From a bacterium (lineage in GTDB: Bacteria > UBP14 > UBA6098 > 4484-93): 64,000 nt of DNA. Shown here in pieces: positions 35,401 to 52,467 of the stretch (the first letter of the stretch is position 1; every line of letters starts with the position of its first letter). The stretch is from the NCBI GenBank assembly GCA_021158465.1, contig JAGGUN010000037.1:1-64000 (forward strand), read 5' to 3'. The notes under the pieces are model-generated. The model searched no databases. It was not told where the DNA came from and saw only the letters and a program-made list of their open reading frames with translations. The position numbers were made by a program, and so were the translations under genes.

Positions 35401-36200
35401 TTGCTATAAACGGTAAGCATGAGGTGTCGCCTTATCACAACTCCTGGCTGCTATTCCTCGATACGGACTTCGGCGGGGCAGACGGCTTCTCCGACCTACG
35501 CAACATCGACCACTGGGACAGGAATGCTCGTTTCCTTACCGGTTGCGGTTTCAAGTGTGACTATCTGTATGGCTCATACCGCGGGCAGACAGGCGATTTC
35601 TGGCGGATACTTACATCTACCACATCCGAGCAGGTAATAGATGATCTCTATTGTGAAACGGACCTTGCATCTTCCAATCCGTCGAGCGAGATAGCAGTTA
35701 GCTGGGATGAACTGTATCATCTTGGAGCAGGTATTGTTCCAGCGTATGCAGAGATCGCCCTTTTTGCGAGTATCGCGAGCCCGATAGAGCTTGGTGGTGA
35801 CTGTGCACCGAACAATATTACGGCTGTTCTGCCGAATATCGACTCTGTCTGGAGTATAACAGTTGACACAAACGGTGACGGATTCCCTGAGCCGTTCGAG
35901 GAGGCGGTAGGGATTGCATCGAAGAAGCTTTCTCCGACCTTGTTTGAACTTTACGTTTATCCGAGTCCGTTTAATTCGAGCTGTAATATTTCGCTTACTG
36001 CGGAGAGGAGCTGTGGGAACGCTGTTGTATCCGTCTATAATATCCTCGGAGAGAGGATTGATACCCTATATTCAGGCAGGCTTCCGGCTGGTGGGCATAG
36101 GCTTTTGTGGGACGCAAGAAGCTTCTCGAGTGGAATATACTTTGTGAGGTTCTCGACAGACGGTTTTTCACAGACAAGGAAGGTAGTCCTTATAAGATAG
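32484..36200 (+). CDS. Large secreted GH57-like glycosidase with T9SS-type sorting domain
   Basis: 1238 residues with a signal peptide and AGGAG before the ATG. Residues about 170-560 resemble a GH57 barrel: LVHHGNQALSY, WIDMLGSAYAQHIMPF, the WVPER segment (candidate nucleophile E299) and YADDWEMAAEMGEW (candidate acid D398/D399). Residues about 850-940 are an Ig-like domain, and 940-1130 a DOMON/CBM9-like sandwich (IDGYLDTLEW). The last 75 residues (PSPFNSSCNI, VSVYNILGERI, FSSGIYFVRF) are a T9SS-type tail. Likely a surface or extracellular alpha-glucan enzyme; substrate inferred from neighbours. Confidence 0.72.
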   Translation: MGWLVLFSVLAFYASSFAAGNPDRWTREQLISVDAVESADRSIPYSSDILSLYYDFSSDSLFFRVSFVSLRTIEREPRENLWKRDKITLSIEMVSEYGRTCSIHIENDGKFSVECRGKQISGRAVITPEYDMVELGMVNPFSLEEAPSLRFLVKSFADGRLSDEARGDSRHRAKGNAHCALVHHGNQALSYTDVFRGRSDDINGSGFDETLEAHDARNIPVCLHISGPLQVAASWYDPDFNDWVARGVSEGWIDMLGSAYAQHIMPFVNDNMNDWAVYTHRQMTHFYYNFWSSVGWVPERTFLDGPGGRYPNTGVADWLGDNFTDNGISAVILDDDVHCSGYDNHQIHLISGTGLRLVPRDSYFTGRLHAGDGAGALSVLQGLADSPDGNYRIVVYADDWEMAAEMGEWATTMPNAKETYDWFVGKCYEESSWLHTWRISDAIGNPDFNGVSITFTPGSHPSIGGTDGYGGGDNGWYTHWAGTASPSDNHTPQWDYGYIWSDANSNLCSSPDNNISQAGWYVLMTNLYETGWHDGLVGPIAGWEVRFSSHIKNANVYAEGARWAGGEYAESVGAFFADCDHDGNDELVIHNDRVFAVFESIGGRAEWIFAKHSDSCAVIVGNDDAYWEGTDMDYNDANHIAALSDVGVGGVDYEHTYYDWEIAASCSDSAVIVLRHGELRKRVSVYPHQPYLHCEYFTRDKETYIKTGFTPGFISLHWGPDVQRLWRAGRYAGFRNRNTSAVGAYILGSGGASHSTEFSSTLLKGDEIKGKGTFGFYLYAGWASADTFGFSSLLDGISLSLVDRFPPDAYKASYNPGTDILVIWFTEDIDISNVSLSGIGFDEDADGTVDLWLDGSCSVLNTGNESGVRVQLSPAKAASLEVLSREHLVLVFSSGAVRDTHGNLCRPLTAGADEVQVSFTANLSITIDGYLDTLEWHCYSLVIDDPNTDSEWDTAKNEIWGVYLYWDTEYIYFAINGKHEVSPYHNSWLLFLDTDFGGADGFSDLRNIDHWDRNARFLTGCGFKCDYLYGSYRGQTGDFWRILTSTTSEQVIDDLYCETDLASSNPSSEIAVSWDELYHLGAGIVPAYAEIALFASIASPIELGGDCAPNNITAVLPNIDSVWSITVDTNGDGFPEPFEEAVGIASKKLSPTLFELYVYPSPFNSSCNISLTAERSCGNAVVSVYNILGERIDTLYSGRLPAGGHRLLWDARSFSSGIYFVRFSTDGFSQTRKVVLIR

Positions 36201-36211
36201 GAGGAAGAACT

Positions 36212-37594
36212 ATGAGGAACATTCTTATCGTTGCTTTTGCAGTTCTGTTCCTTGGGGTGGTTGCTCTTTCTGCGTCGATTGATTGGTGTGGGAATGTTTA
36301 TCCTAATTATGGTGCTGAGATAAACGCTGAGGTTGACCTCAATGTTTACTTCCAGCTCTACAAGGCGGGAGTGACCGATGCCGAGGGCAGGGGTGAAGGG
36401 CTTTCTGCCACGCTTTTTTACAGGAATGCAGGGGAGGTAGAGTGGAATTCTGTGGAGATGGTTTACAATGTTGATATTGGCAACAACGATGAGTATGCAG
36501 GCACAGTGCCTTCTGATGTTCTCACTCCTGGGGTTGACATCGAGATCTACTGTGAGGGATTGGACTCGACCGATATGACCACCTGTCAAGGGAACGACCA
36601 GGTTGGCAACCCTGCGACGATGGAGGAACCGCTCGTCTATCATCCTGTTTCACCGACGGCTATCGATGTTGTAGTTCATTTTTCCGTAAATATGAACTGG
36701 GTAGGTGCGATTGAGCCTGTTACAGTAGCAGGTTCATTCAACGGCTGGGATATGTCTGCGACGGTTCTTTCCGATAGGGGAGATGGTATCTACACTGGTT
36801 CGGTTACCATTCCTGCTGGCTCCAACCGACATCAAGAATACAAGTATATCAATGGAGGCACTTGGGAGGCAACGGGTAATCGTGTCTTCGAGGTGGACGA
36901 TTCTGGTCCTTCTGACCAGTATCTCCCGCTCGATTATTGGGAGAACAGAAGCACTCTTCCTGTTTCTGTTGTGTTTCAGGTGAATATGACAGGTTATACG
37001 GTTTCTGACCCTTATATAGCGGGTAGTCAGCCTCCATTGCACTGGGGTTGGGACGATGGCTGGACGGAGGATGATAGGATATACGATGATGGTACCCATG
37101 GCGATATAACCGCTGGAGACTATATTTACACCACGGTGATAGATTTCCCCGCTGGCACATATAGGGATATCGAGTACAGATATACAACCGACGGCACCGA
37201 CAATGAACCTTTACCTCCCTATGTCAATCACGCATTCACACTCGATGAATCCTCCGATACTCTTCGATTACCTGTCGATACCTTTGGTAGCCTCGGAATA
37301 ACCGTTGACAGAACGGAGATCCCGGAGAGTATCGAGCTCTTTCAGAACTCACCGAACCCGTTCAACGAGAGAACAGAGATACAGTTCGCGATAAGCAGGG
37401 GGATTTCTTCGCCAGCGACCCTTTCTGTCTATAATCTGAAGGGTGAGCTTGTATCAGAGATTATCACGGGGATTTCTCTCCCAGGTATATATCACATTAT
37501 CTGGGATGCATCGGATCTCCCGAGCGGGACATACATCTACAAGCTCGAGGGGCGCGATTTTAGTTACTCGAGGAAGATGACGCTTCTCAAATGA
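36212..37594 (+). CDS. Secreted CBM20-like carbohydrate-binding protein with T9SS-type tail
   Basis: 460 residues from the ATG at 36212, which has GGAGG upstream. Signal peptide, an Ig-like N-terminal region (about 20-150), then a starch-binding-like module at about 165-245 (VTVAGSFNGWD, QEYKYINGGTWE) and a second, weaker one at about 250-345 ending near the DDGTHGDITAGDYIY loop. The C-terminal 80 residues (NSPNPFNERTEI, LSVYNLKGELV, LPSGTYIYKLEG) match T9SS-type sorting domains. No catalytic domain is visible, so a glucan-binding surface role is inferred. The next gene overlaps by 4 bases. Confidence 0.72.
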   Translation: MRNILIVAFAVLFLGVVALSASIDWCGNVYPNYGAEINAEVDLNVYFQLYKAGVTDAEGRGEGLSATLFYRNAGEVEWNSVEMVYNVDIGNNDEYAGTVPSDVLTPGVDIEIYCEGLDSTDMTTCQGNDQVGNPATMEEPLVYHPVSPTAIDVVVHFSVNMNWVGAIEPVTVAGSFNGWDMSATVLSDRGDGIYTGSVTIPAGSNRHQEYKYINGGTWEATGNRVFEVDDSGPSDQYLPLDYWENRSTLPVSVVFQVNMTGYTVSDPYIAGSQPPLHWGWDDGWTEDDRIYDDGTHGDITAGDYIYTTVIDFPAGTYRDIEYRYTTDGTDNEPLPPYVNHAFTLDESSDTLRLPVDTFGSLGITVDRTEIPESIELFQNSPNPFNERTEIQFAISRGISSPATLSVYNLKGELVSEIITGISLPGIYHIIWDASDLPSGTYIYKLEGRDFSYSRKMTLLK

Positions 37595-40500
37595 AGGGGA
37601 ACACTCTTACGAGGGGAATACCGGTTCTGCTGCTTATTTTTGTTCCTTTCTGGCTCTTTGGCGAGCCGTACAATACCCCTACCATTGATGGAGTTATCTC
37701 CATCTCGCCGGATGACTGGGATGAGGACGAGCTGGTCGGTGATGACCCGATAGATGATTCCTATTGGACAGGAAACGAATTCAGGGCTATCTATCTCACA
37801 TACGACGCAGTGAACCTCTATATCGGACTGGGGTTTGTCGTCTCGGATAATGCAATGGTTTTATACATAGAATCCGGTATCCCCGGAGGGGTTGTCGATT
37901 TCAACAGCACACGCGGATACTCTGGCGCATACCCGAGGAATATTGTTTTCCCGGATACTTTCGGGATAGATTTGCTTATCGGCAGCTGGAACGGTGAAGG
38001 ACCTTATGTCTATCTCACAGCGGATTCGACCAGCAGCGAGATAACATCTATATGCAGGGCGGCAGCAGGTGATATGTTCGAGCAGGAGATTGCCATCCCT
38101 TGGAGCATAATCTATCCCGAGGCAGAGGAGATAGTTCCCGAGAATGTTTCGGTGAGTCTTGTTGGCGTTATAGCGGGTGGCGATAACTATGGTGCGGCGG
38201 ATGCTGTGCCTGACAATCCGACAATCGATGGCGGAGAGGGACCACATCTTTTGACCGAGTATATAACTGTTCCGATCGACGCAAACGGTGATGGTATCCC
38301 TGATTTCGCAGGGGAATCTATAAGCGGAGTGGTCAACTTCAACGACACGACGCTCTCCCCTCCGTATCCTGTTGCAAGAATAGATGCGGTCAGCTGTGCC
38401 ACAGGGGAAATCTTTGCTACAGCCTATTCCTCCACTGCAGATGGTAGCTATATGCTCGCTGGTGTTGTGGAGGGTGAGGTCTATGATATTGTTGCCGAGG
38501 CGGCTGGTTTTCACCCTGATACGGTCTTTGGCTATGCAGTTGTCTCAGGGGAGAACATGGTCGATTTCACTCTTGAGCCATATACGGGGAGGCTGTTCGG
38601 CACGATAACCCCTGATGATGTCCCCGTTTATGTCTATGCGATGATGGATACATCTGTTTTTGGCTTCCCCGATACAGCGGAAGGGGAGTATGAGATAACG
38701 CATCTACCCGATGGGATATACAATGTTTTCTTCGAGCCTCTCTCGGTGGACTATGTCTCATCTGTTGTCGAATCTGTCGAGGTTCTTCAGGGGGAATCTG
38801 TTGAGCTGGATGTTGTTCTCGAACGAGCTGGTGTCATCAGGGAGGCAGTTGACGCAACTGGTGATGACTATGGTCCAGGCTGGTATATGTATCCGACCGA
38901 TGTCGTCTTTGTCGATGCTGTATTCGACATCGAGTATGTGAAGATACGGGATACAGGCGATGCTTATCAGTTTGAGGTTGCTGTCGGCGATATACCGGGT
39001 AAGGGGGTTGTCGATTGGAGTCCATATTATCCACCTCTAAATCTGCAGAAGATAGATATATACATCGATTGTCATCGTGGTGGTGCGACAGTTGGTCTGC
39101 CGAACAGGAATGTAACATTTGCCGCCACGGATGCCTGGGATTTTGCGATATCTGTCGACGGCTGGTGGAAGGGGATATTAGCTTCCAACGGGCAGGATAT
39201 ATTCTCCAATTTCACGCAGGATGTATCATCTGTATCGTTCGTTGCCGATACACTCACAGACAGAATCTGGATAACCGTCGATAAGTCTGCCTTTGTGGAC
39301 GCTCTCGGCTATGCGGATACGAGTAGCTTTTCTCAATGGGATATACTTGTTCTTATGCTCGGTCATGACGGCTCCGGTGTTGAGGGGGTGAGATATGTCA
39401 ACTCTGGGACATCCAATCAATGGCAGTTCAACGGTGGAGCGGATGGCGATATCGACCCGAATGTGATTGATATTGTTGCTATGCCAGGCACCGATGCTTA
39501 CGGCAATCCGAAGGAGCCGGGAAGGAGTCAGGAGGAGATGCTCGACTATACTGCCTGCTCTCCGGTGGTGCTTGAGGCGGCGAAGAGCACAGATATTATC
39601 CCTCCAACCATATCATATTCTCTTCCTGCCGAGATACCTCATCTTGCAGGGACTCCCGGTGTCTATATCGAGGTCTATATCGAGGATGATGTCGATGTGT
39701 ATGTGGCGATGCTCTTCTGGCGGAACATCGGCGAGGAGGAATGGCATCCTATTCCGTTTGGCTATCGGGAAGAGAGGAATATGTTCGTTGGTGATATCCC
39801 GTTCGATGATGTAAAACCGGATTCGTTCGAGTTCTTCTTTGTTGCAGCTGACCCGTCGGGAAACCTCACTTATGACCCGAAGGATTATCCCGACACGGCT
39901 GTGGCATCACCACCTGCTTACCCTTACTCTACCTTGTCGGCAAATCCGACAAGGGTTATCCCTTCGATAACGGATGTCGATACATCCAGCTTCGTTGTGC
40001 CTGTCAATACAATATCGGGCGAGCATATCTTTTTCTTCCCTGATGGAGCGATGCTGACTATTCCCAGAAGCAGGATTTCATCTGCTGTTGATACAATCTA
40101 TGCAAGCTATACCAATCTTCCGTCTGCTGGTGGGACATTCCCCGATATCTCTCCTCTGGGGCAGTATCGAACGCTTGTTCTATGCTCGGAGGAGGGTCAA
40201 CCTGTTCTGACATCCTATGCCCCGTTTTCATTTCACTATTTTGAGACGACCGGAGACGAGAGCAGTTTCACCTTGGCGAAGAGGGATAACCGGACGGATG
40301 TCTGGGTGCCTATCGGTGGCAGGAATGCTCCGGAGCCTAATACGGTAAACTGCAATATTCTTCTGGATGAGCAGGAAACATATATCGGGCTTTTCGAGCA
40401 GGGGCAGGTGAAGGTTTCTTCTGATCCTGTATCTGATATTATCATATCGCCCAATCCGTTCTCGCCCAATGCTGATGGTCTGTGCGACGAGACAAACATC

Positions 40501-40752
40501 ACGGTTGTTACCTGCTATGATGGTCAGGTCGATATAGACATCTTTGATATATCTGGCAATCTTGTTTTGAGCCTTGCCCGAGGTAAGCGGGTATCATCGG
40601 GCAGGAATGAGAACATCATCTGGGATGGACGCAGTGGCTCTGGAGAGGTTCAGCCGGTGGGAGTGTATCTTGTCTGTGTCAGGTTCACATACATATTCGA
40701 TGGGAACGAACGGGAGGCAAGAAAGAATAAGGCAGTGGTGATTGTAAGATGA
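37591..40752 (+). CDS. Secreted multidomain glucan-associated protein with glucodextranase-C-like module
   Basis: 1053 residues with a signal peptide. Residues 25-220 look like a DOMON/CBM9-like domain (TIDGVISISPDDWDED). Two carboxypeptidase-regulatory-like folds follow (about 240-420). Residues about 420-665 strongly resemble the C-terminal module of glucodextranase/amylopullulanase (DYGPGWYMYPTD, IDIYIDCHRGG, WDFAISVDGWWKG, DPNVIDIVAMPG). The end (about 955-1053) is a FlgD/CHU-like Ig domain (SPNPFSPNADGLCDETN, GVYLVCVRF) able to act as a sorting or gliding-type tail. No catalytic centre was seen. Confidence 0.68.
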   Translation: MKGNTLTRGIPVLLLIFVPFWLFGEPYNTPTIDGVISISPDDWDEDELVGDDPIDDSYWTGNEFRAIYLTYDAVNLYIGLGFVVSDNAMVLYIESGIPGGVVDFNSTRGYSGAYPRNIVFPDTFGIDLLIGSWNGEGPYVYLTADSTSSEITSICRAAAGDMFEQEIAIPWSIIYPEAEEIVPENVSVSLVGVIAGGDNYGAADAVPDNPTIDGGEGPHLLTEYITVPIDANGDGIPDFAGESISGVVNFNDTTLSPPYPVARIDAVSCATGEIFATAYSSTADGSYMLAGVVEGEVYDIVAEAAGFHPDTVFGYAVVSGENMVDFTLEPYTGRLFGTITPDDVPVYVYAMMDTSVFGFPDTAEGEYEITHLPDGIYNVFFEPLSVDYVSSVVESVEVLQGESVELDVVLERAGVIREAVDATGDDYGPGWYMYPTDVVFVDAVFDIEYVKIRDTGDAYQFEVAVGDIPGKGVVDWSPYYPPLNLQKIDIYIDCHRGGATVGLPNRNVTFAATDAWDFAISVDGWWKGILASNGQDIFSNFTQDVSSVSFVADTLTDRIWITVDKSAFVDALGYADTSSFSQWDILVLMLGHDGSGVEGVRYVNSGTSNQWQFNGGADGDIDPNVIDIVAMPGTDAYGNPKEPGRSQEEMLDYTACSPVVLEAAKSTDIIPPTISYSLPAEIPHLAGTPGVYIEVYIEDDVDVYVAMLFWRNIGEEEWHPIPFGYREERNMFVGDIPFDDVKPDSFEFFFVAADPSGNLTYDPKDYPDTAVASPPAYPYSTLSANPTRVIPSITDVDTSSFVVPVNTISGEHIFFFPDGAMLTIPRSRISSAVDTIYASYTNLPSAGGTFPDISPLGQYRTLVLCSEEGQPVLTSYAPFSFHYFETTGDESSFTLAKRDNRTDVWVPIGGRNAPEPNTVNCNILLDEQETYIGLFEQGQVKVSSDPVSDIIISPNPFSPNADGLCDETNITVVTCYDGQVDIDIFDISGNLVLSLARGKRVSSGRNENIIWDGRSGSGEVQPVGVYLVCVRFTYIFDGNEREARKNKAVVIVR

Positions 40753-41618
40753 GAGGAGTGGTTACATTAACATTCGTTTTGGTTGTTTTCCTTTCTCCTT
40801 TTGAGCTGTTTGGTGATTTTGCACCTGTCTGTTTCTCGAGTTCTCGGGCTGTTTCGATGGGTGGTGCCTACTTGTCTGTCTGTGAGGGGAGTGATGCTGT
40901 CTTCTACAACCCATCGAGGATTATTTCTTCTCATCGCTTCGAGCTTGCAGTGGACTATACGATGCTCTATTCGGTCGATGGGCTATCCTATTTCTCGTCT
41001 GCATTTTCATATACCAGTGGCAGGTTTGGCGGTTTTGCACTCGGATGGCGTGGGCTTTACCTCGAGGATGTTTACGGAGAGAACCACATAAGCCTCAGCT
41101 GGGGGAAGAGAATCTGGAAGACTGTTTCCGTAGGGGGTTCTCTTAAAGGGCTTTTGCTCTCTGCTCCGGGATACTCAAGGTACAATGACCCAAATTTTGA
41201 GGAGAGTTTTATTGCCTTATCAGGGGATTTAGGATTTTCCTTTGCTCCGTTCCGGAATGCTGTGTTCTCTGGTGTTGTGACGAATGTAAACGCTCCAAGG
41301 CTCTCTTTTATCTCAACCACCTCCGAGCCTGACGAGTGGCATCGGAACATTCGTTTTGGGCTCTCTTATACCATCAGGCGTTCGCTCGTATTCTCGCTCG
41401 ACGCTTACACGAGGCGCGGTGACTTTGGTAGTCTACATTTCGATATAGGCTCGGAGATGACATTCTTTGATGCCCTTTCGCTCCGCTCCGGTGTATCCGA
41501 TGGTAGGCTCGGACTCGGGATAGGTCTGTTCTCAAAGAGATGGGCGTTCGATGTTGCTCTCGCATCGCACAGGTATCTTGGCAACAGATACCAGTTCTCG
41601 TTCAAGGTGATGTATTGA
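40749..41618 (+). CDS. PorV/PorQ-like outer-membrane beta-barrel in the glucan locus
   Basis: 289 residues. Signal peptide, then FSSSRAVSMGGAYLSVCEGSDAVFYNPS, which closely follows the PorV family start (R-xx-xMGGAY...D-xxxxNPA). Repeated amphipathic strands follow, ending FSFKVMY. It overlaps the preceding cargo-like gene by 4 bases and the next barrel by 1. PorV proteins shuttle T9SS cargo, so pairing with three T9SS-tailed proteins upstream suggests a dedicated secretion helper. Confidence 0.72.
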   Translation: MRGVVTLTFVLVVFLSPFELFGDFAPVCFSSSRAVSMGGAYLSVCEGSDAVFYNPSRIISSHRFELAVDYTMLYSVDGLSYFSSAFSYTSGRFGGFALGWRGLYLEDVYGENHISLSWGKRIWKTVSVGGSLKGLLLSAPGYSRYNDPNFEESFIALSGDLGFSFAPFRNAVFSGVVTNVNAPRLSFISTTSEPDEWHRNIRFGLSYTIRRSLVFSLDAYTRRGDFGSLHFDIGSEMTFFDALSLRSGVSDGRLGLGIGLFSKRWAFDVALASHRYLGNRYQFSFKVMY

Positions 41619-43072
41619 TGAGAAGGGTCATCGTAATATCACTTTTTCTCCTTTTTGCTGGAAGGCTCGAATCGGCTGTTCGGTTCGAGGGGTATTATGA
41701 GAACACGAACACGCTCGATGGGAACATCCGTTGGTATCTTGGTGAGCCGCATCATAATATTGAGTTCCGCTTCCTCGGGCAACCTATGGGTGGTATTGAG
41801 ACCTTTTTGAAGTTCCACGCGGAATCTGATAAGTTTTTCAACAACAATCTCGCTCAGAGGTACACACTTTACGATATGATAGAGTCTCACGCCCGTTTCA
41901 GATGGGAGAAAGGTTTGGAGCTTGTTCTCTTTTCTCGAGAGAACCGGTTCTGGTTTCCGCAGGGTTTGATGGAGCTTGTCTCCCAGTGGACGGTGAACGA
42001 TAACGGCAACGCTCAGGGTGTGAGGGCGGATTTCTGGAATATCTGGAAGCTTCACGGGCTTTTTATATATTCTGACTATTCGCAGTCTGGTGGCGAGGAT
42101 GCCACCATCACCAGATGGAGCTTGCCGCTTTTGTCCGACAGATTTAGGCTTTCTGCTACATTTGCTCGCAAGGACTGGGACGGCTCATCCGATAACCACA
42201 ATGATGTTGTATCCGGAGATATGTACCTTTCCCTTGGTAGGTTGCTATCTCCTCTTACCCGTTTCGGTGATTTCGACTGTGCGCTTGAGCTTGCCAAGAG
42301 TCGCATCCCCGATGAGGGCAGGAATAGCAAAAACACCGCCTTAAAGGCGGAGATAAGAAACCTTCGAGTTGGTCCTGTTGAGTTTAAGTTTGCTTATAGG
42401 GAAACGGGAGAGAACTTCCGCTCCTATCTCTCCTCCGACTATGACCAGGGGCAGAAGTACAACGAGTCTGGTTATAATATAAATGCGACATACTTTTTCC
42501 CGACAAAAGCAGTGAATATAACGACGAACTATGATAGGTATTCGGCGCCTGTCTCGAGAGGGTTTCCTGTCAGTGAGACGAACCCCGCTTACATCTATCA
42601 GAGCTGGTATAATGAGCTTTACATCGAGTTTGTCCACGACATCCGCTACAAGTTATATTATAGGTGGTATCGTGGCTGGGATACGAACTACGATGCATAC
42701 AAGGTTTATCCAACACTTTTCAACGAGCTTTCGTTCGAGAACTTCCTTGCCAAGGTGAGACTTCAGTTCCGCTGGAAGGATATAGGGACACCCTATGAGC
42801 TCCAGGCGTTCGGCTTCGAGCTGAATGCCAATCTGACGCGCAACTGGAAGCTATACACGCGGGCTGTGAATGTAAATGAGACATCGGAATCCCGCCAGAC
42901 AGTATTTGTTCAGTTTCAGTATAACGGCTGGTCGAACACGGATTTCTTCCTCGAGTTCGGCAACCCGGCTGATTCAGACAACGACCTGACCAACGATGAT
43001 GATTTTGTCAACTGTTCATCGAGCAATGAGATAAGTCAACAGGTTAAAACATACATAAGAGTGTATTTTTAG
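41618..43072 (+). CDS. Outer-membrane beta-barrel protein of the glucan locus
   Basis: 484 residues from the ATG that overlaps the previous stop (TGATG). Signal peptide, then about 16-20 predicted amphipathic strands rich in aromatic and acidic residues, ending in VKTYIRVYF with a terminal phenylalanine typical of barrels. I do not recognise a specific family. The position suggests a porin or channel for glucan oligosaccharides; this is inference from context. The next gene begins 8 bases on. Confidence 0.62.
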   Translation: MRRVIVISLFLLFAGRLESAVRFEGYYENTNTLDGNIRWYLGEPHHNIEFRFLGQPMGGIETFLKFHAESDKFFNNNLAQRYTLYDMIESHARFRWEKGLELVLFSRENRFWFPQGLMELVSQWTVNDNGNAQGVRADFWNIWKLHGLFIYSDYSQSGGEDATITRWSLPLLSDRFRLSATFARKDWDGSSDNHNDVVSGDMYLSLGRLLSPLTRFGDFDCALELAKSRIPDEGRNSKNTALKAEIRNLRVGPVEFKFAYRETGENFRSYLSSDYDQGQKYNESGYNINATYFFPTKAVNITTNYDRYSAPVSRGFPVSETNPAYIYQSWYNELYIEFVHDIRYKLYYRWYRGWDTNYDAYKVYPTLFNELSFENFLAKVRLQFRWKDIGTPYELQAFGFELNANLTRNWKLYTRAVNVNETSESRQTVFVQFQYNGWSNTDFFLEFGNPADSDNDLTNDDDFVNCSSSNEISQQVKTYIRVYF

Positions 43073-43080
43073 GAGGCAGG

Positions 43081-45330
43081 ATGAGAAGTCTCTTTGTGTT
43101 CCTTTTGATCCTTACCCCTGTTGCACTGTTTGCTGGTTATGAGGTTGTTGAGGACGGTGTTCTATTCAGTTACTCTGACCCGAATGCAGATGTTGTCTTC
43201 CTTGCAGGTGATTTCAACGGCTGGAATGAGAACGATATACAGTTAGAAAAGGATTCCACAGGTCTCTTTACGGTCAAGTTGAGACTCAAGGATGGGAGGT
43301 ATGAGTACAAGTTCATTGTTGACGGTGTTTGGAAGGAGGACCCTGACAATCCGAACAAGGTTCCTGACCCTTATGGTGGTTACAACTCTGTTGTCGAGGT
43401 CGGTGTAGGTGAGGAGATAGGGTCGACTGAGCCAGGTGGCAGAGCAGTTTTTACATATTTTGACCCTGATGCCAGGGCTGTTTATCTTGCCGGTGAGTTC
43501 AACGGTTGGAATCCGCACGAGCTTTTGATGGAGAAGGGAGAAGATGGTGTCTGGCGGGTATCTGTTAACCTTGCGCCTGGTGAATATGAGTATAAGTTTG
43601 TCGTGGATGGTAACTGGGTCACAGACCCTATGAACCCGACCATCCGTGGGGATATGGGTAACTCTGTTATTCGTGTGAACAAGGATGGGACAGCGTCTTA
43701 TCCTGCTGGTGCGCGGCTACTCACCAATACACCTGTCTCGTCGAGGGTGCTGTTCGGTGGGCAGTTTCTATCGCGATTCGTGAGCTCCCGCGGTTACCCA
43801 GGGGACAGGCGGTTCAAGCTGGGCAAGCCGGATGTAAAGCTCGATGTCAACATAAAGGCTCATATATCGGAGGGAGCGGAGCTACTCGGTTCGTTTGATG
43901 TCAACACAACCGAGGCGGAGAGGATGTATGAGGCTCATCTTCATCTCGATTCGCTCGGTCTTGACCTCGATGCTGGGGAATTCTTTGTATCTGCCTTCTT
44001 CAACAGGGAGCTATTTGAGACATCCGACCCTCTTTCTCTTGTCGGTAACTATCCTCTTCCTGAGCCGACTTACGAGGAGCCTCAAAGCTTCGGGCTTGGC
44101 TATGCAGGGATAAAGCTCGAGTGTGGGCTTTTCAAGCTTCTTCTTGCTAACGAGTTCAAGAACTGGGCATTCTCGCCTGATACGCTTGATTTCCCTAATA
44201 TGGCTGGCAGGAGAGAGCTGGGCTTTTTCTCGAGAAGGATTTCAACGGTTGATGAACCGACCGACTTTTCCAACTACGGTACGGATGTTCTGGCAGGCAG
44301 GATTAGTAAAGATTTTGGGTTTGTCGCTCCTGGGGTTGTTTTCCGTGTTGACAAGAACCGCTGGTGGCTACCCATCTCAGAGATAACCTATGAGAGGTTT
44401 GACTCTATTTACGCCTACGAGAACCTTTCCTCCGATTGGTTTGACCTCGGTTCCTGGGAGCTGGGAATAGGAGGCGATGTTAGTGTAAATGCGTGGGATG
44501 TAGCCCATCTGTGGGCTGAGTATATCTACTGGAAATATGCCTCACTGATCGAGGCTGGCAACCGTGAGAACCGCGACAGAACAGGTGATGGCAAACTTGA
44601 CATCCCGCTCGGAAGGCAGACAGGATTCCTATCCGGAGCAGGTTTCTCGCTTGACCTGTTCGAAGGTTTTGGGGTTTCACTTTCTGCTGAGCTCGAGCAC
44701 TACGACCCGATGGATACGGATGATGTCTATATCGTTCCGCACCCGAACGATGGCGAGACCGGTAGACCAACCCTCACATATGAGACACTCCCCGAGTATG
44801 ATAGAAAAGCCTTTCTGGGTATGGTGAGATACGAAAGCGAGCATCTCTCTACGGAGGTTTCGTATCGGTTCGAGGATGTGAAGGATACAAGGAAGTTCGG
44901 TGCCGTTCTTCCAGGGCTTTCACTCTCTCTTTTCAAGAAGAGAATGGCTTTTCGCTTTAGGGGAGGATACTCCTCGGGCAGTTTTGGTGAAACCAATTTC
45001 TTCGGGACAGATATCCTCTATGGGTTGAATTATAATTTTTGGAAGGCTCTCTCGTTTGGTGCGGATGTTATGTACAAGCGGATTGACACTCAAAGGAGCG
45101 AGGCAAAGGACTACTTCTTCCCGTATCTTGCTCTTATTTGGCAGCCGAAGGGGACGGTTAGGTTTGAACTGTCCACTGGTGTTTCGCCGTACGATATAAA
45201 GGGGCGCTACACAGGGAGGAGCAAGTGGCTATACGACACAATGAATGAGTATTCCATCTCGTTTGTTGATGCTCTCTCCCGAATGGAGCGATACAGGGGG
45301 ATAAACATCTTTGCGAGTGTGAGGTTCTAA
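43081..45330 (+). CDS. Two CBM48 modules fused to an outer-membrane beta-barrel
   Basis: 749 residues. Signal peptide, CBM48 (AMPK-beta/glycogen-binding type) modules at about 22-108 (VVFLAGDFNGW, YEYKFIVDG, DPDNPN) and 118-200 (AVYLAGEFNGW, YEYKFVVDG, DPMNPT), a short linker, and residues about 220-749 of amphipathic strands ending NIFASVRF. Both modules keep the tryptophan and lysine positions used to hold glucan in characterised CBM48 domains. The layout implies a glucan-binding receptor or porin in the outer membrane. I know of no described family with this architecture. AGGAGG precedes the ATG. Confidence 0.75.
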   Translation: MRSLFVFLLILTPVALFAGYEVVEDGVLFSYSDPNADVVFLAGDFNGWNENDIQLEKDSTGLFTVKLRLKDGRYEYKFIVDGVWKEDPDNPNKVPDPYGGYNSVVEVGVGEEIGSTEPGGRAVFTYFDPDARAVYLAGEFNGWNPHELLMEKGEDGVWRVSVNLAPGEYEYKFVVDGNWVTDPMNPTIRGDMGNSVIRVNKDGTASYPAGARLLTNTPVSSRVLFGGQFLSRFVSSRGYPGDRRFKLGKPDVKLDVNIKAHISEGAELLGSFDVNTTEAERMYEAHLHLDSLGLDLDAGEFFVSAFFNRELFETSDPLSLVGNYPLPEPTYEEPQSFGLGYAGIKLECGLFKLLLANEFKNWAFSPDTLDFPNMAGRRELGFFSRRISTVDEPTDFSNYGTDVLAGRISKDFGFVAPGVVFRVDKNRWWLPISEITYERFDSIYAYENLSSDWFDLGSWELGIGGDVSVNAWDVAHLWAEYIYWKYASLIEAGNRENRDRTGDGKLDIPLGRQTGFLSGAGFSLDLFEGFGVSLSAELEHYDPMDTDDVYIVPHPNDGETGRPTLTYETLPEYDRKAFLGMVRYESEHLSTEVSYRFEDVKDTRKFGAVLPGLSLSLFKKRMAFRFRGGYSSGSFGETNFFGTDILYGLNYNFWKALSFGADVMYKRIDTQRSEAKDYFFPYLALIWQPKGTVRFELSTGVSPYDIKGRYTGRSKWLYDTMNEYSISFVDALSRMERYRGINIFASVRF

Positions 45331-45336
45331 GGGATT

Positions 45337-45723
45337 ATGAATAGGATTTATGTTTATCTTCTGGTTCTCTTGCTTTCCGGTTGTGCTGCTGGCAGGTTGA
45401 TAAAGGATCGGCTTCCGCCGCCGCATAAGGTAGAAGGTGGGGTTCTGTTCCAGTATGAGAACAAAGCAGCTCATTCTGTTAATCTTGCTGGGAATTTCAA
45501 CGGCTGGTGTGGGACGAAGGAATATCATCGTTTTGACCCATCCATTGGTGTTATGCACGACGATGATGGCGATGGTATATGGGAGATAGTTGTCCCACTG
45601 CCTCCTGGCAGGTACCAGTATAAGTTTGTGATAGACAACGGAACAAGCTGGGTTCTCGATCCGAATAACCCTCTGCGTGGTGTGGAGGACGGAATAGAGA
45701 ACTCATTGATAATCGTCGATTGA
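45337..45723 (+). CDS. CBM48-containing lipoprotein
   Basis: 128 residues. A lipoprotein signal peptide with lipobox LLLSGC is followed by a single CBM48 module (VNLAGNFNGWC, YQYKFVIDNG, DPNNPL). The module carries a longer insert with DDDGDGIWE. Membrane anchoring is seen from the lipobox; whether it faces the surface or periplasm is unknown. It lies 6 bases after the CBM48-barrel gene and 13 before the CBM48-GH57 gene, so three successive genes share the module. Starch or glycogen binding is inferred. Confidence 0.82.
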   Translation: MNRIYVYLLVLLLSGCAAGRLIKDRLPPPHKVEGGVLFQYENKAAHSVNLAGNFNGWCGTKEYHRFDPSIGVMHDDDGDGIWEIVVPLPPGRYQYKFVIDNGTSWVLDPNNPLRGVEDGIENSLIIVD

Positions 45724-45736
45724 CAGGGAGGGAGTT

Positions 45737-48307
45737 ATGGTGAAAAGGTTATTTGTGCTTTTTTTGCTCTTCCCGGGTCTTCTTTTTGCTCAACCGAAGA
45801 TGGGAGAGAACGGTGTTCTGTTCGAGTTCAAGGCTCCGAATGCGAATGTGGTTTATCTTTCAGGTGAGTTCAACAACTGGTCTCCAACTGCAACCCCGAT
45901 GGAAAAGGCAAAGGATGGTATCTGGCAGATAGAGTATCCGCTGAAGCCGGGGAGCTACCAGTATAAGTTTGTAGTGGATGGCAGGAGATGGGAGCCTGAC
46001 CCGAATAATCCGTTCGTCGTCGATGATGGCTACGGCGGGGTGAACTCAGTCCTCACGGTCACAGAGGATGGAAAGGTTGTCCTCGGTCAGCAGATGAAGC
46101 GTTTTGTTCCAACCGATGATTATGATGTGAACGGCAAACTATATCTGAATATCATCTGGCATCAGCATCAGCCTCTCTATCTCGACCCTGTCAAGGACTA
46201 TCTCCGCGGTCCGTGGGTGCGCGCTCACGCCACAAAAGACTACTACGATATGGCAGCAACGATAGCCAAGTATCCAGACCTCCACTGCACGATAAACCTG
46301 ACATCTGTTCTGTTGTTTCAGCTCCAGGAATATTATGTCAACCGACTTGCACCTTATGTCAATCTCAAGGAGAATTCCGTTGATGCTAAGCGATATTTTG
46401 CTGATATGGGAGGTAGAACAGACCCTTGGATAGATATGGCTTTGAAACCCACGGAGGAGTTCACGGATGAGGATGATGCGAACCTGTACAAGAACGCCTG
46501 GAACTCGTTCGGGATCTCTGATGTTATGCTTGCTCGCTTCCCGGAGTATAAGGCTCTCAAGGATAAGGGGGGCAAATTCACCGTTCAGGAGAAGCGGGAG
46601 ATAAAGTTCTGGCATTATCTTGCCTGGTTCGATCCGGATTTCCTCCGCGGCAGGGTCGACCTCCCCGGTGGCATGAGCTGCGACCTGTCGGACCTCGTCG
46701 AGGAGCGGGATGGTAAATTTTACCTCAGAAAGAAGGTAACAGAAAGGGATTGCAATCGCATAATTGCCGAGGTGTTCAAGGTGTGTGCTTCCGTTGTGCC
46801 TATTCATAGGGAGCTTATGTATAACCCTGAAACCTATGAAGGTCAGATAGAGATAATCACGACACCGTATTACCATCCGATACTGCCGCTTATCTATTCG
46901 ACCAATTCGGCTCGCATCTGCCAGCCAGGGACTCCTCTGCCGACGGAGTTCTCCTATCCTGAGGATGCATCCGCTCAGGTAGCGAAGGCGGTCGCCTTCT
47001 ATGAGGATATATTCGGAGCAAAACCGTATGGATTCTGGCCCGCCGAGGGCGCAGTCTCAGAAGACATAGTGAAAATAATGGTCGAGAACGGTATCCTCTG
47101 GATGGCGACAGGTGACGGTGTCCTCTACAGATCGACCACTTCTGCTCTGCCCGTTTATCAGCCGTATCGTGTCGATTCCGACAAGGTTTCTGGCGATAAC
47201 GACCCATCCGATGCTATGGCTGTTGTGTTTCGCCACACCGAACTCTCAGACAAGATAGGCTTCAGGTATCAACTCAAGACCGGAGAGGAAGCAGCGGACG
47301 ATTTTATCCGCTCGGTTATCGGGTTTGCTTCGCCTGATGAGGACAGACTGCTGACGGTCATACTGGATGGTGAGAACGCATGGGAGTGGTATAGGCTCGA
47401 CAACGATGGCAAGCAGTTCCTGAATGCTCTCTATCGAAAGCTTTCCAAGCTCACACGGGAGGGAAAGGTTATAACAGTAACGACAGCTGAATATATCCTT
47501 GGCAACCCGAAGCGTAATGTTCCGCCACATCCTGTGTCGAGTATGAGGGAGATAGAGCCGCTCTGGCCTGGTTCTTGGATAAATGCGAATTTCGACACCT
47601 GGATTGGTGAGCCGGAGGAGAATACTGCCTGGGAGTATCTGCTCACAGCAAGGCGAGAACTTGAGAAGTCCGGTATCCCTCGTCCTGACCCAGCCGCTTC
47701 ACCGCCACCTGAAGGGACAAAGGAGTTTTATGCCTATAAGGCTTGGGAGGAGATGTATGCTGCAGAGGGCAGCGACTGGTTCTGGTGGTATGGGGCGGAT
47801 CAGGGGGCTCCTGGTGGCGATGAGCCGTTCGATGAAGCTTTCCGCGCTCATATACTTGGCGTGTATGGGTTCGCAAGGAAAGCCGGTGCAAAGGTTGAAC
47901 CTCCCAACCTGCCTCCCATTCTGATGGGAACAACCTCCAGTGGAGGTGGGACGATGGCTCAGTCGGGGAATATGGTCTCTGTTGTCTTCACCTGCGATGC
48001 GAGGGGTATCGATGTTCCCGATGCGATATATATAGTCGGCGATAAGCCGGAGCTTGCCAACTGGACACCGAACAAGGTTAGGATGTACGATGATGGTACC
48101 AACGGAGATGAGAGGTCCGGTGACGGTATCTGGTCGATCGAAATTAAGTTCCCAGAGAACACATCGGTGCAGTATAAGTATACAAACTCGGGTGAGGTAG
48201 GCATCTGGTCACCAGGGGAGGAGTTCCCTGTGGCGAACCGCCAGATATTTGTCCGTGACGACGGAGGCGGTAGGATGCTTGTAAGAGATACATTCGGCAA
48301 AATGTAG
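45737..48307 (+). CDS. Exported GH57 amylopullulanase-type enzyme with CBM48 and CBM20-like modules
   Basis: 856 residues. Signal peptide (cleaved near FAQ), CBM48 at about 25-108 (VVYLSGEFNNWS, YQYKFVVDG), GH57 from about 135 (IIWHQHQPLY motif 1; nucleophile E437 in WPAEGAVS; acid D544 in ILDGENAWEWY; SDWFWWYG near 725), and a C-terminal CBM20-like module at about 765-850. The motifs fit the amylopullulanase/alpha-glucosidase branch of GH57. No lipobox or T9SS tail is present, so a periplasmic location is likely. It would cut imported glucans into maltodextrins for the adjacent ABC importer. Confidence 0.88.
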   Translation: MVKRLFVLFLLFPGLLFAQPKMGENGVLFEFKAPNANVVYLSGEFNNWSPTATPMEKAKDGIWQIEYPLKPGSYQYKFVVDGRRWEPDPNNPFVVDDGYGGVNSVLTVTEDGKVVLGQQMKRFVPTDDYDVNGKLYLNIIWHQHQPLYLDPVKDYLRGPWVRAHATKDYYDMAATIAKYPDLHCTINLTSVLLFQLQEYYVNRLAPYVNLKENSVDAKRYFADMGGRTDPWIDMALKPTEEFTDEDDANLYKNAWNSFGISDVMLARFPEYKALKDKGGKFTVQEKREIKFWHYLAWFDPDFLRGRVDLPGGMSCDLSDLVEERDGKFYLRKKVTERDCNRIIAEVFKVCASVVPIHRELMYNPETYEGQIEIITTPYYHPILPLIYSTNSARICQPGTPLPTEFSYPEDASAQVAKAVAFYEDIFGAKPYGFWPAEGAVSEDIVKIMVENGILWMATGDGVLYRSTTSALPVYQPYRVDSDKVSGDNDPSDAMAVVFRHTELSDKIGFRYQLKTGEEAADDFIRSVIGFASPDEDRLLTVILDGENAWEWYRLDNDGKQFLNALYRKLSKLTREGKVITVTTAEYILGNPKRNVPPHPVSSMREIEPLWPGSWINANFDTWIGEPEENTAWEYLLTARRELEKSGIPRPDPAASPPPEGTKEFYAYKAWEEMYAAEGSDWFWWYGADQGAPGGDEPFDEAFRAHILGVYGFARKAGAKVEPPNLPPILMGTTSSGGGTMAQSGNMVSVVFTCDARGIDVPDAIYIVGDKPELANWTPNKVRMYDDGTNGDERSGDGIWSIEIKFPENTSVQYKYTNSGEVGIWSPGEEFPVANRQIFVRDDGGGRMLVRDTFGKM

Positions 48308-48316
48308 GAGGGAAGA

Positions 48317-49540
48317 ATGAGACGCTATATCATCTTTATCTTGATTGCGCTTTTCCTCCTCTCCTGTGGAAAGCGAGAGAAGGGGAAGACGATAACCATC
48401 TGGCATCAGATGCAGATAGAGGCCAGGGAGGTCCTCGAGCGTGCCTGTGAGGAGTATTCTGCTGCTCATCCGGATTTGAAGATAGTAACATTGTATAAAG
48501 AGACAGAGGAACTGCGTTCTGCCTTTCAGACAGCATCGCTTGCAGGTGGCGGTCCAGAGATAGTGTATGGTCCTTCCGACCAGATTGGACCGTTTTCGAG
48601 AATGAAGCTAATTCTTCCGCTTGAAGGGCTGTTCTCGACGGATTCACTTGAGAAGTTCGACAAGATGAGCCTAACATATTTCGAGGGGCATCTCTATCAG
48701 ATAGGGGATAGAATAGGAAACCATCTTGCGCTCGTCTACAATAAAGCGCTTGTTCCCGAGCCGCCAAAGGAAACGGATGAGCTTATAAGGCTTGGCAAAC
48801 AGCTTACGAAGGATATAGACGGAGATGGCAGAACCGATAGATATGCCCTCGTCTGGAATTACACGGAGCCGTATTTCTTCATACCGTTTTTGGGTGGTTT
48901 CGGTGGTTGGGTGATGGATGAGAACGCTCGTCCGACCTTAAACACGAAGGCAACTGTGAGTGCTCTTCGGTTCATTGTTGCTCTCAGGGATTCTTTTGCA
49001 ATTATCCCGAAGGAATGCGACTACGATATGGCTGATGCCCTCTTTAAGGAAGGAAGGGCTGGTATGATAATAAACGGTCCCTGGTCGTGGGGAGGGTATA
49101 TTAGATCCGGTCTGGATATAGGCATAGCCTGCATTCCGAAGGTAAGTGAAACAGGTATCTGGCCTACACCGATGGTCTCACCGAAGGGGTATTCGATAAA
49201 CAGAAACACAAAAAGTGATATTCTGCCCGATGTTGTCAATCTTATATATTATCTGACATCTCCTTCGGTTGAGCTTGAGTTCACCAAGGTACTCGGCACT
49301 ATTCCTTCACGGCTGGAGGCTCAGAAGGATAGCGTTGTTGTCAACAATCCGATAATATCTGCATCGAAGGAGCAGCTTGCTCGTGGTCGCCTAATGCCGG
49401 TTGTTCCTGAGCTTCGTGCTATCTGGGACGCTATGCGCCCTGCTTATCAAGCGGTCCTTGGTGGGGCAATGACACCCGAAGAGGCTGCCAGGATGATGCA
49501 AGAGGAAGCCGAGAAAAAGATCAAGGAGATGAACGAGTGA
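48317..49540 (+). CDS. malE: Maltodextrin-type ABC transporter substrate-binding lipoprotein
   Basis: 407 residues. Lipobox FLLSCG at the N-terminus, then a family 1 sugar-binding protein (ITIWHQMQIE, GGGPEIVYGPSDQIG, NGPWSWGGY, MPVVPELRAIWDAM). A canonical partner for MalF/MalG. Maltose/maltodextrin specificity is inferred from the surrounding GH57 and CBM48 genes and the FNGPWSW-like pocket. AGGAGG precedes the ATG and malF overlaps its stop by 4 bases. Confidence 0.85.
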   Translation: MRRYIIFILIALFLLSCGKREKGKTITIWHQMQIEAREVLERACEEYSAAHPDLKIVTLYKETEELRSAFQTASLAGGGPEIVYGPSDQIGPFSRMKLILPLEGLFSTDSLEKFDKMSLTYFEGHLYQIGDRIGNHLALVYNKALVPEPPKETDELIRLGKQLTKDIDGDGRTDRYALVWNYTEPYFFIPFLGGFGGWVMDENARPTLNTKATVSALRFIVALRDSFAIIPKECDYDMADALFKEGRAGMIINGPWSWGGYIRSGLDIGIACIPKVSETGIWPTPMVSPKGYSINRNTKSDILPDVVNLIYYLTSPSVELEFTKVLGTIPSRLEAQKDSVVVNNPIISASKEQLARGRLMPVVPELRAIWDAMRPAYQAVLGGAMTPEEAARMMQEEAEKKIKEMNE

Positions 49541-50433
49541 AGCCAAACAAGAAGGATGTAGAGGCGGTTCGCTTTAAGTATCTATTCCTCCTGCCAGCGC
49601 TTATCCTCATATTTGCTGTTGTGGTCTATCCGTTCATATACAACATCATTATCTCCCTTTCCAATATGAGTATGTCCCACTTCCACGATTGGCGGATAGT
49701 CGGTTTCAGGCAGTATGTGAAGGTATTCTCGGAGCCTATCTTTTACTCTGTCCTGGGGAAAACGGTTGTCTGGACGGTTGTCAATGTCTTCTTCCATGTT
49801 GTCATAGGTGTTTTCCTTGCAGTTCTGCTCAACAGGCATCTTCCGGGTAAGGGGATCTTCCGAACGCTGCTTATTATCCCTTGGGCTATGCCGCAGTATA
49901 TAACGGCGCTTACCTGGCGTGGTATGTTCAACTATGAATATGGGGCGATAAATCTTATTTTATCGAAGTTCTTGCATCTTCCGATGGTTGAGTGGCTCAA
50001 GAATCCGACCGATGCTTTCATTGCTTGTATCTTGACGAATATCTGGCTTGGCTTCCCGTTTATGATGGTCATCGCCTACGGCGGACTGCAAGCTATCCCG
50101 AGGGAGCTGTATGAGGCGGCGGATATTGATGGCGCAAGCGGTTGGCAGAAGTTCTGGAAGATAACAGTGCCTCACCTTAAGCCGGTTATGATACCTGCCA
50201 TTGTCCTCGGTGTTATATGGACTTTCAACAATCTCAATGTTATCTGGCTCGTCTCGAACGGTGGTGAACCGTCCGACAAAACACATATCCTCGTCTCCTA
50301 TGTATACAAGGCTGCATTCAACTTGTATCGCTACGGATACGCTGCAGCACTTTCTATGGTGATATTCTTTATCCTGCTTCTGTTTGGGATAACCTTTATC
50401 CGCAAGACCAGAGCGACTGAAGGAGCGTATTGA
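49537..50433 (+). CDS. malF: Sugar ABC transporter permease, MalF type
   Basis: 298 residues with six hydrophobic helices and the EAA loop ELYEAADIDGASGWQKFWKI facing the ATPase. The N-terminus lacks the large extra periplasmic loop of enteric MalF. It overlaps malE by 4 bases and malG by 1. Confidence 0.88.
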   Translation: MKPNKKDVEAVRFKYLFLLPALILIFAVVVYPFIYNIIISLSNMSMSHFHDWRIVGFRQYVKVFSEPIFYSVLGKTVVWTVVNVFFHVVIGVFLAVLLNRHLPGKGIFRTLLIIPWAMPQYITALTWRGMFNYEYGAINLILSKFLHLPMVEWLKNPTDAFIACILTNIWLGFPFMMVIAYGGLQAIPRELYEAADIDGASGWQKFWKITVPHLKPVMIPAIVLGVIWTFNNLNVIWLVSNGGEPSDKTHILVSYVYKAAFNLYRYGYAAALSMVIFFILLLFGITFIRKTRATEGAY

Positions 50434-51269
50434 TGAGGCGAAGAGATAGCAAACTCAAGCTTGCTGCAATTTACATATTTCTTATCCTGTTCACGGCGGC
50501 AACGCTTTACCCTGTCGTTCGTGTGTTATCGATCTCGCTTCGACCAGGCAACAGACTACTTTCGACATCGCTTCGTGTTATCCCTGAGGGGGCGACATTT
50601 GAGGCTTATAGGCGCCTGTTCACAGAGACGGATTTCCTCCGCTGGATGTTCAATTCCATCATCGTTTCGCTCGCTGTGACACTGACGGGCGTTATCTTTG
50701 CGTCGTCTGCTGGGTATATCTTCTCGAAATACAGGTTCATAGGCAAGAAAGTCGGGCTAACAGCGCTTCTGACGACGCAGATGTTCCCTGCAACGATGTT
50801 ACTCCTACCGATGTATATAATGATATCGAAGCTCGGGCTTATAAATAGCTATCTCGGGTTAATAATTATCTATCTTGCAACCGTATTACCGTTCTGCATC
50901 TGGCAGATGAAAGGGTATTATGACACGATACCGGATTCGCTGCACGAGGCGGCGATAATCGATGGTTGCTCACATTTTCAGGCGTTCTATAAGGTAATCC
51001 TGCCACTTGCTGCTCCTGCCCTTGTGATAACGGCTCTGTTCTCGTTTATGGGTTCCTGGAGCGAGTATATTGTTGCGGCGGTCATCCTTCAGGACCAATC
51101 GATGTTTACCCTCCCGCTCGGCTTAAAGATGTTTCAGGCAAATATGGCTACCGACTGGGGATTGTACGCAGCAGGTTCTGTTATCGTATCGGTGCCCGTT
51201 GTCGTGCTGTTCATCATCCTGAGCAGATGGCTTGTATCCGGCTTAACACTCGGGAGTGTCAAGGGATGA
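50433..51269 (+). CDS. malG: Sugar ABC transporter permease, MalG type
   Basis: 278 residues with six helices and the EAA loop LHEAAIIDGCSHFQAFYKV. The GLINSYLGLIIIYLATVLPFCIW segment is characteristic of the second sugar permease. The ATG overlaps the malF stop. A 133-base gap separates it from the ATPase gene. Confidence 0.88.
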   Translation: MRRRDSKLKLAAIYIFLILFTAATLYPVVRVLSISLRPGNRLLSTSLRVIPEGATFEAYRRLFTETDFLRWMFNSIIVSLAVTLTGVIFASSAGYIFSKYRFIGKKVGLTALLTTQMFPATMLLLPMYIMISKLGLINSYLGLIIIYLATVLPFCIWQMKGYYDTIPDSLHEAAIIDGCSHFQAFYKVILPLAAPALVITALFSFMGSWSEYIVAAVILQDQSMFTLPLGLKMFQANMATDWGLYAAGSVIVSVPVVVLFIILSRWLVSGLTLGSVKG

Positions 51270-51402
51270 GAAATTTTCTTTGCCTGATATCAACCTTTAT
51301 TCTTCCTGCCTCGATTTCCTTGCACTTGAGGGTCTTGGATTTGCCAGGTGAATCCGGAACCGCCCTTATAATTTGGATAAAAGCAGCGGAGGTTACGGAA
51401 CG

Positions 51403-52467
51403 ATGGGAGAGGTTATCTTAAAGGATGTGAACAAGATTTATGAGGGCAATGTTCACGCTATCAAGGATATCTCGCTTGAGGTTGCCGACAGGGAATTTCT
51501 GGTTCTTGTTGGACCTTCTGGTTGTGGTAAGTCCACACTTCTTCGGATGATTGCTGGTCTTGAGGATGTAACATCTGGTGAGATATGGATAGATAGGCGG
51601 GTCGTCAACCAGCTTCCTCCAAGGGACAGGGATATCTCTATGGTTTTTCAGAACTATGCGCTTTACCCTCATATGACCGTTTACGAGAATATGGCTTTTG
51701 GGTTGCGGATAAGGCACTTCCCGAAGGATGAGATAGACAGACGTGTTCAGGAGGCGTCAAGGATTCTTGGTATCGAGGATCTTCTGTCGAGGAAACCGAG
51801 GGCTCTCTCTGGTGGTCAGCGTCAGCGTGTTGCGCTTGGTAGGGCTATTGTCAGGAAGCCCAAGGTTTTCCTGTTCGATGAGCCGCTCTCCAACCTTGAT
51901 GCAAAGCTCCGCGTTCATATGAGAACAGAGATAAAGAAGCTGCATCAGCGGCTCAAGACCACTATGATATATGTTACCCACGATCAGGTCGAGGCGATGA
52001 CTATGGGCGATAGGATTGCCGTCATAAGGGATGGAGTTCTCCAGCAGCATGATACTCCGATGACCCTGTATAATAACCCAGTGAACCTTTTTGTTGCGGG
52101 TTTCATCGGCTCACCTGCGATGAACTTCCTCGAGGGCAAAATCGAGGATAAGAAGGTTCTCTTCGACGGGATAAGGATAGATGTTCCCCCTGGTGCAAGA
52201 ACGGATAGGATAAGCAATGTCATTGTCGGTATCCGACCGGAGTATTTTATACTTGATCCCGTTTCTCCGCATTTTACTGCGCAGATTGAGGTTGTTGAGC
52301 CGATGGGAAATGAGATATTTGTTTACTTCCAGTTGAGCAAAAAATCTGTTGTTGCCCGTCTTCCTGCTGATACCGAAGTCAGACCAGGTGATACCCTGCC
52401 TTTGAGGATAAATGTCGATATGGTGAGGCTGTTCGACCCAGAAAGTGGGATGTCGCTCTTCTATTAG
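51403..52467 (+). CDS. malK: Sugar ABC transporter ATPase, MalK/UgpC type
   Basis: 354 residues. Walker A GPSGCGKST (37-45), signature LSGGQRQRVALGRA, Walker B VFLFDEPLSNLD, and a C-terminal OB-type regulatory domain (from about 240) as in MalK/MsmK. The ATG at 51403 is preferred to an in-frame TTG at 51373 because GGAGG lies 11 bases upstream. Such ATPases often serve several sugar importers. The end overlaps the convergent flippase gene by 4 bases. Confidence 0.9.
   Translation: MGEVILKDVNKIYEGNVHAIKDISLEVADREFLVLVGPSGCGKSTLLRMIAGLEDVTSGEIWIDRRVVNQLPPRDRDISMVFQNYALYPHMTVYENMAFGLRIRHFPKDEIDRRVQEASRILGIEDLLSRKPRALSGGQRQRVALGRAIVRKPKVFLFDEPLSNLDAKLRVHMRTEIKKLHQRLKTTMIYVTHDQVEAMTMGDRIAVIRDGVLQQHDTPMTLYNNPVNLFVAGFIGSPAMNFLEGKIEDKKVLFDGIRIDVPPGARTDRISNVIVGIRPEYFILDPVSPHFTAQIEVVEPMGNEIFVYFQLSKKSVVARLPADTEVRPGDTLPLRINVDMVRLFDPESGMSLFY

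Follow-up and report, generated by a model that had tools for sequence, protein, structure and literature searches.

The question raised by this locus is what a single chain that joins two glycogen-binding modules to an outer-membrane barrel-type domain does for a bacterium, on which side of the membrane its modules lie and whether it acts alone. In the window, that is, the whole stretch of 64,000 nucleotides analyzed here, the gene for this chain (the CBM48-barrel protein) belongs to a series of genes from 37591 to 52467 that all share one orientation and are never more than ~105 bases apart. Promoter and terminator scans gave results at chance level. The genes of the series and the parts of the protein are as follows:

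37591 to 40752, + strand: exported protein (Pfam: Glucodextran_C binding domain, CHU_C type-IX sorting domain)
40749 to 41618, + strand: PorV/PorQ-like barrel protein, usually found in the cluster, assigned from a weak NCBIfam match below the cut-off
41618 to 43072, + strand: OMP500, a 484-aa outer-membrane barrel-type protein whose start codon ATG overlaps the stop codon of the gene before it
43081 to 45330, + strand: CBM48-barrel protein, 749 aa (ORF, Pfam, AlphaFold, Foldseek and C-terminus analysis), made up of a signal peptide (~1-19), two CBM48 modules (~20-110 and ~113-202), a linker (~203-221) and the barrel-type domain (222-749)
43132 to 43698, + strand: the two CBM48 (AMPK1_CBM) modules (Pfam, PDB sequence match, Foldseek, residue mapping)
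43744 to 45327, + strand: the barrel-type domain, residues 222-749, without a Pfam or PDB relative, a distant paralogue of OMP500
45337 to 45723, + strand: CBM48 lipoprotein, with the lipobox LLSGC followed by IKDRLPPP (Pfam, tether analysis)
45737 to 48307, + strand: alpha-glucan enzyme with signal peptide, CBM48, GH57 and CBM20, without a type-IX tail (Pfam)
48317 to 49540, + strand: MalE-type solute-binding lipoprotein (Pfam)
49537 to 50433, + strand: MalF-type permease
50430 to 51269, + strand: MalG-type permease
51373 to 52467, + strand: MalK/UgpC-type ATPase (NCBIfam among the bases of the assignment)

The original prediction had placed an ORF at 43081-45330, and this position proved exact, on the + strand and with 749 codons. 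AGGAGG (Shine-Dalgarno) lies upstream, and the N-terminus of the product is hydrophobic and ends in ALFAG, which by eye is a signal peptide. The whole ORF is kept in a congener at 86% identity, with a dN of 0.078 and a dS of 0.45 and similar values in both halves of the gene. Judged by these rates, purifying selection acts on the gene.

The prediction of two CBM48 modules in residues 22-200 was confirmed by Pfam, motifs, contact residues and fold. AMPK1_CBM/CBM_48 matched two stretches of the protein with 112.9 and 79.4 bits (cut-offs 26.8 and 22.4), and each module retains intact FNGW and YKF motifs. Their best PDB relatives by sequence are AMPK beta subunits; AlphaFold modeled both with a pLDDT of ~70-87, and Foldseek aligned them to the AMPK glycogen-binding domain 1z0m with a TM of 0.84 and an rmsd of 1.9 A. 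In rat AMPK-beta1, W100, K126 and W133 touch the carbohydrate, and mutating them lowers glycogen binding (PMC2642990). Residue mapping gave W48, K77 and W84 in the first module, and W143, K172 and W179 in the second, as the equivalents of these three residues; the modules would bind alpha-glucans. Pfam found no AMPKBI domain in the chain. Identities as a T9SS plug (NF052315, 26.4 bits against a curated cut-off of 100), as SusE/SusF (PF16411, 11.3 bits against 27.5) and as GlgB (score under the cut-off) were rejected, the E-set module being the sole source of each match.

Residues 220-749 had been read as amphipathic strands ending in NIFASVRF, a reading borne out by the C-terminal signal, the amphipathicity and ~20 predicted strands. 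No Pfam match was obtained for residues 208-749, nor any Pfam, NCBIfam or PDB family match for residues 222-749, and Pfam run against the barrel domain of 27 members at E 0.05 returned zero matches, LamB (PF02264) included. F is the last residue in each of the 26 full-length relatives, positions -3, -7 and -9 are always hydrophobic, and the positions between them are mostly polar. This is the classical C-terminal signal of barrels assembled by BAM. Beta-amphipathicity was above that of shuffled sequences in 27/27 barrel-domain members (median z 2.7; MalE control, -0.3). The soluble T9SS protein at 36107 also reached a z of 3.3, as soluble beta proteins can show such periodicity, and amphipathicity alone is therefore no proof of a barrel. 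AlphaFold built the domain with ~20 hairpin-forming strands and a pLDDT mostly below 50 (35-46), remaining below confidence because the alignment held only seven sequences, and all Foldseek matches of the barrel-only model to outer-membrane barrels were non-significant. The structural check proposed with the prediction thus modeled the modules well, gave the hairpin strands at low confidence and fell short of showing a closed barrel. A soluble or surface beta-structure with no barrel would agree with this lack of confidence, but we regard it as highly improbable, since the textbook outer-membrane signal is present at every one of the 26 C-termini and the domain is homologous to OMP500, whose members mostly end alike. 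We infer that residues 222-749 make up an outer-membrane beta-barrel, whose strands would close.

When 386 genomes were searched with a profile made from just the barrel domain, 29 of them matched. Starch-binding modules accompany the domain in 29/29 members examined, in one to four copies each, and this includes all 15 loci to which only this profile had led. One member (G287, L092:6065-8581, + strand) carries two CBM20 modules instead of CBM48, which by its domain content is a module swap with the ligand class kept. The family's starch modules number 42 (40 CBM48 and the two CBM20 of G287). Among them, the equivalent of W100 is present in 41/41 that could be aligned and that of K126 in 41/42, and the second Trp position, equivalent to W133, is aromatic without exception. 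Phylum-level scans were positive in 18/20, 2/3, 5/16, 7/7 and 18/120 genomes of five phyla besides that of the window, and a contig scan returned only six loci, all in the window's own genus and class. In viral contigs and plasmids there were no homologues apart from one CBM48-only match. The search for the same architecture across genomes, another check put forward with the prediction, hence found it in at least six phyla.

A second barrel goes with the first. In 28/28 loci with enough contig, OMP500 precedes the CBM48-barrel gene on its strand, and it adjoins that gene except in four genomes (G009, G011, G013 and G087), where one small gene stands between. Neither protein has a Pfam family or a PDB relative. 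Profile-profile comparison (hhalign) of 27 CBM48-barrel domains with 23 OMP500 sequences gave a 98% probability and an E of 2.3e-13 over 206 columns; controls with reversed profiles, an unrelated PorV-like barrel and MalE had E values of at least 0.036. As the barrel profile also picks OMP500 frames directly in other genomes (E 1e-7 to 1e-11), the two are distant paralogues. On this homology, the starch modules were either gained by one paralogue or lost by the other. With a paralogous barrel always next to it, the CBM48-barrel chain may be just part of a device. It could even be an anchor or assembly partner without a pore, which sets its modules (perhaps the GH57 enzyme too) beside OMP500 as the true channel. 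In the same genomes OMP500 is the better conserved of the two (mean column identity 61% vs 42%) and it is always adjacent, as such a division of labor would have it; nevertheless, the paralogy makes it likely that both are the same type of barrel, and ~530 residues are many for an anchor, so that we consider this explanation quite unlikely.

Downstream, a CBM48 lipoprotein follows the CBM48-barrel gene in 24/25 testable loci, with a PorV-like gene in between in two genomes (G044 and G326). Most of these lipoproteins carry the tether C-x(3-9)-[IV]-[KRE]-x-R-x-PPP. After its Cys, the lipoprotein has K/R rather than acidic residues. Automatic recovery missed the lipobox of five, of which three show a plausible cysteine on inspection by eye. 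Of the 29 loci, 15 encode MalE and one more has MalG/MalK; many of the rest are short contigs. Enzymes of the GH57 or GH13 type that bear CBM48 are frequent, and most loci that are long enough have GH57/GH13 amylases together with MalEFG(K).

Some genes around this core vary. In a congener (G001, L033:10312-12615, + strand) a CBM48-GH13 amylase gene stands between malG and malK and is absent from the corresponding interval of the window (51269-51373). A MalG-type ABC permease of G044 (L046:6817-8190, - strand) has a CBM48 (E 6.5e-13) between TM1 and TM2, in the first periplasmic loop; at the corresponding position, the MalG proteins of G083 and G224 have loops that are enlarged. Upstream of the series, the window encodes a 1238-aa T9SS-tailed protein (32484-36200) whose middle part is GH57-like by eye (HHGNQ...), Pfam reporting Por_Secre_tail only, and another T9SS-tailed protein (36107-37594), whose AMPK1_CBM/CBM20-like module makes it a candidate for glucan binding at the surface.

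On which side of the membrane the modules lie can be approached from the layout of the chain. In ordinary bacterial barrels both termini are periplasmic and the number of strands is even. The modules are N-terminal, most members have a linker of only ~16-30 residues from them to the first strand, and the chain ends in the beta-signal; together with the rule on termini, this makes a periplasmic location most likely, and the modules probably face the periplasm. The residues after the lipoprotein Cys were counted for the periplasmic side, and the periplasmic-loop CBM48 in the MalG of G044 fits with binding modules being periplasmic. The original prediction had instead combined the role of SusE/F with that of a channel, which implies a surface receptor. 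The modules of such a receptor would be threaded through the pore or brought outside by an odd number of strands, with either the barrel itself or OMP500 as the channel. Capture of glucans outside the cell is common among starch-degrading Bacteroidetes, and the genome, which encodes the T9SS sortase PorU (608 bits), exports many proteins by that system. We find such a receptor rather unlikely: N-terminal modules on short linkers and a BAM signal at the C-terminus speak against it, a starch module is also found on a periplasmic permease loop, and T9SS-tailed candidates for the surface are already in the locus. The type-IX-tailed exported proteins at 32484-40752, two of which have domains of the glucan-binding type, are better candidates for surface capture. 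What stands of that claim is the union of modules and barrel in one chain within an alpha-glucan locus; the surface side is doubtful.

The reading that we favor, and hold to be moderately likely, is that the CBM48-barrel protein is an outer-membrane barrel with periplasmic modules that, with OMP500, serves the outer-membrane step of maltodextrin or glycogen uptake. Its computed support consists of domain content, contact residues, outer-membrane sequence marks, the paralogy with OMP500 and gene order across phyla; from these we infer the pore, its substrate and the direction of transport. Surface proteins with type-IX tails would bind or trim the alpha-glucan, and oligosaccharides would pass through the barrel or barrels, the CBM48-barrel protein and OMP500 acting as two channels or as a channel and its partner. 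At the inner mouth of the barrel, the CBM48 modules and the tethered CBM48 lipoprotein could grip the emerging chain, which the periplasmic CBM48-GH57-CBM20 enzyme would shorten for import of the product by MalE-MalFGK. The broader prediction of a glucan receptor or porin agrees with this, given the combination of CBM48 with a barrel-type domain, its recurrence and the alpha-glucan locus (lipoprotein, GH57, MalEFGK), glucan binding and the channel being the conditional part. A flow in the opposite direction would be that of an alpha-glucan exporter with the layout of BcsC/PgaA, in which a periplasmic binding domain precedes the barrel. The order of domains is the same as in those exporters, but the neighbors are hydrolases and the MalEFGK importer, and the cluster showed no glucan synthase, which leaves export with very little probability. 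More tentatively still than uptake itself, OMP500 and the CBM48-barrel protein could be a tandem-duplicated pair forming a joint glucan translocon, in which periplasmic CBM48 ratchets chains inward without TonB; several candidate phyla would then use a third way of taking up starch, next to those of LamB and Sus. We give this reading a low probability.

In its working, the locus resembles LamB-MalEFGK or Sus and belongs to neither. With the maltose system of E. coli (LamB, MalS, MalE-MalFGK) it shares an outer-membrane step, a periplasmic alpha-glucan enzyme and a MalEFGK importer, but here there is no match to LamB, the barrel has glucan-binding modules, and the locus additionally encodes a paralogous second barrel and a CBM48 lipoprotein. 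As in the Sus of Bacteroidetes (SusC/D/E/F/G), a channel candidate, a starch-binding lipoprotein and an amylase are encoded together; in contrast to Sus, the CBM48-barrel protein lacks the TonB plug PF07715 (the three plugs of the genome lie elsewhere), no SusD was seen in the cluster, an ABC transporter does the importing and the modules are probably periplasmic. Unlike SusE/SusF, its N-terminus has no lipobox cysteine, and the PF16411 match is far under the cut-off. The modules have the fold and the glucan-contact residues of the CBM48/AMPK-beta glycogen-binding domain, but sit on an outer-membrane-type barrel rather than on an enzyme or a kinase subunit, and without AMPKBI. BcsC/PgaA barrels likewise have an N-terminal periplasmic domain ahead of a C-terminal barrel, which is TPR rather than CBM48 and is found in a context of export, not import.

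No earlier description of the CBM48-barrel protein or OMP500 was found in the open-access full-text literature. Uptake of alpha-glucans is of a known kind, and the new part is the two uncharacterized barrel families, one of them with carbohydrate-binding modules built into an outer-membrane barrel-type chain. The open-access papers searched do not describe how starch or glycogen enters candidate phyla that have an outer membrane but neither LamB nor Sus. The conserved core of OMP500, CBM48-barrel protein, CBM48 lipoprotein and Mal importer makes this question directly testable, and provides a substrate hypothesis for both barrel families.
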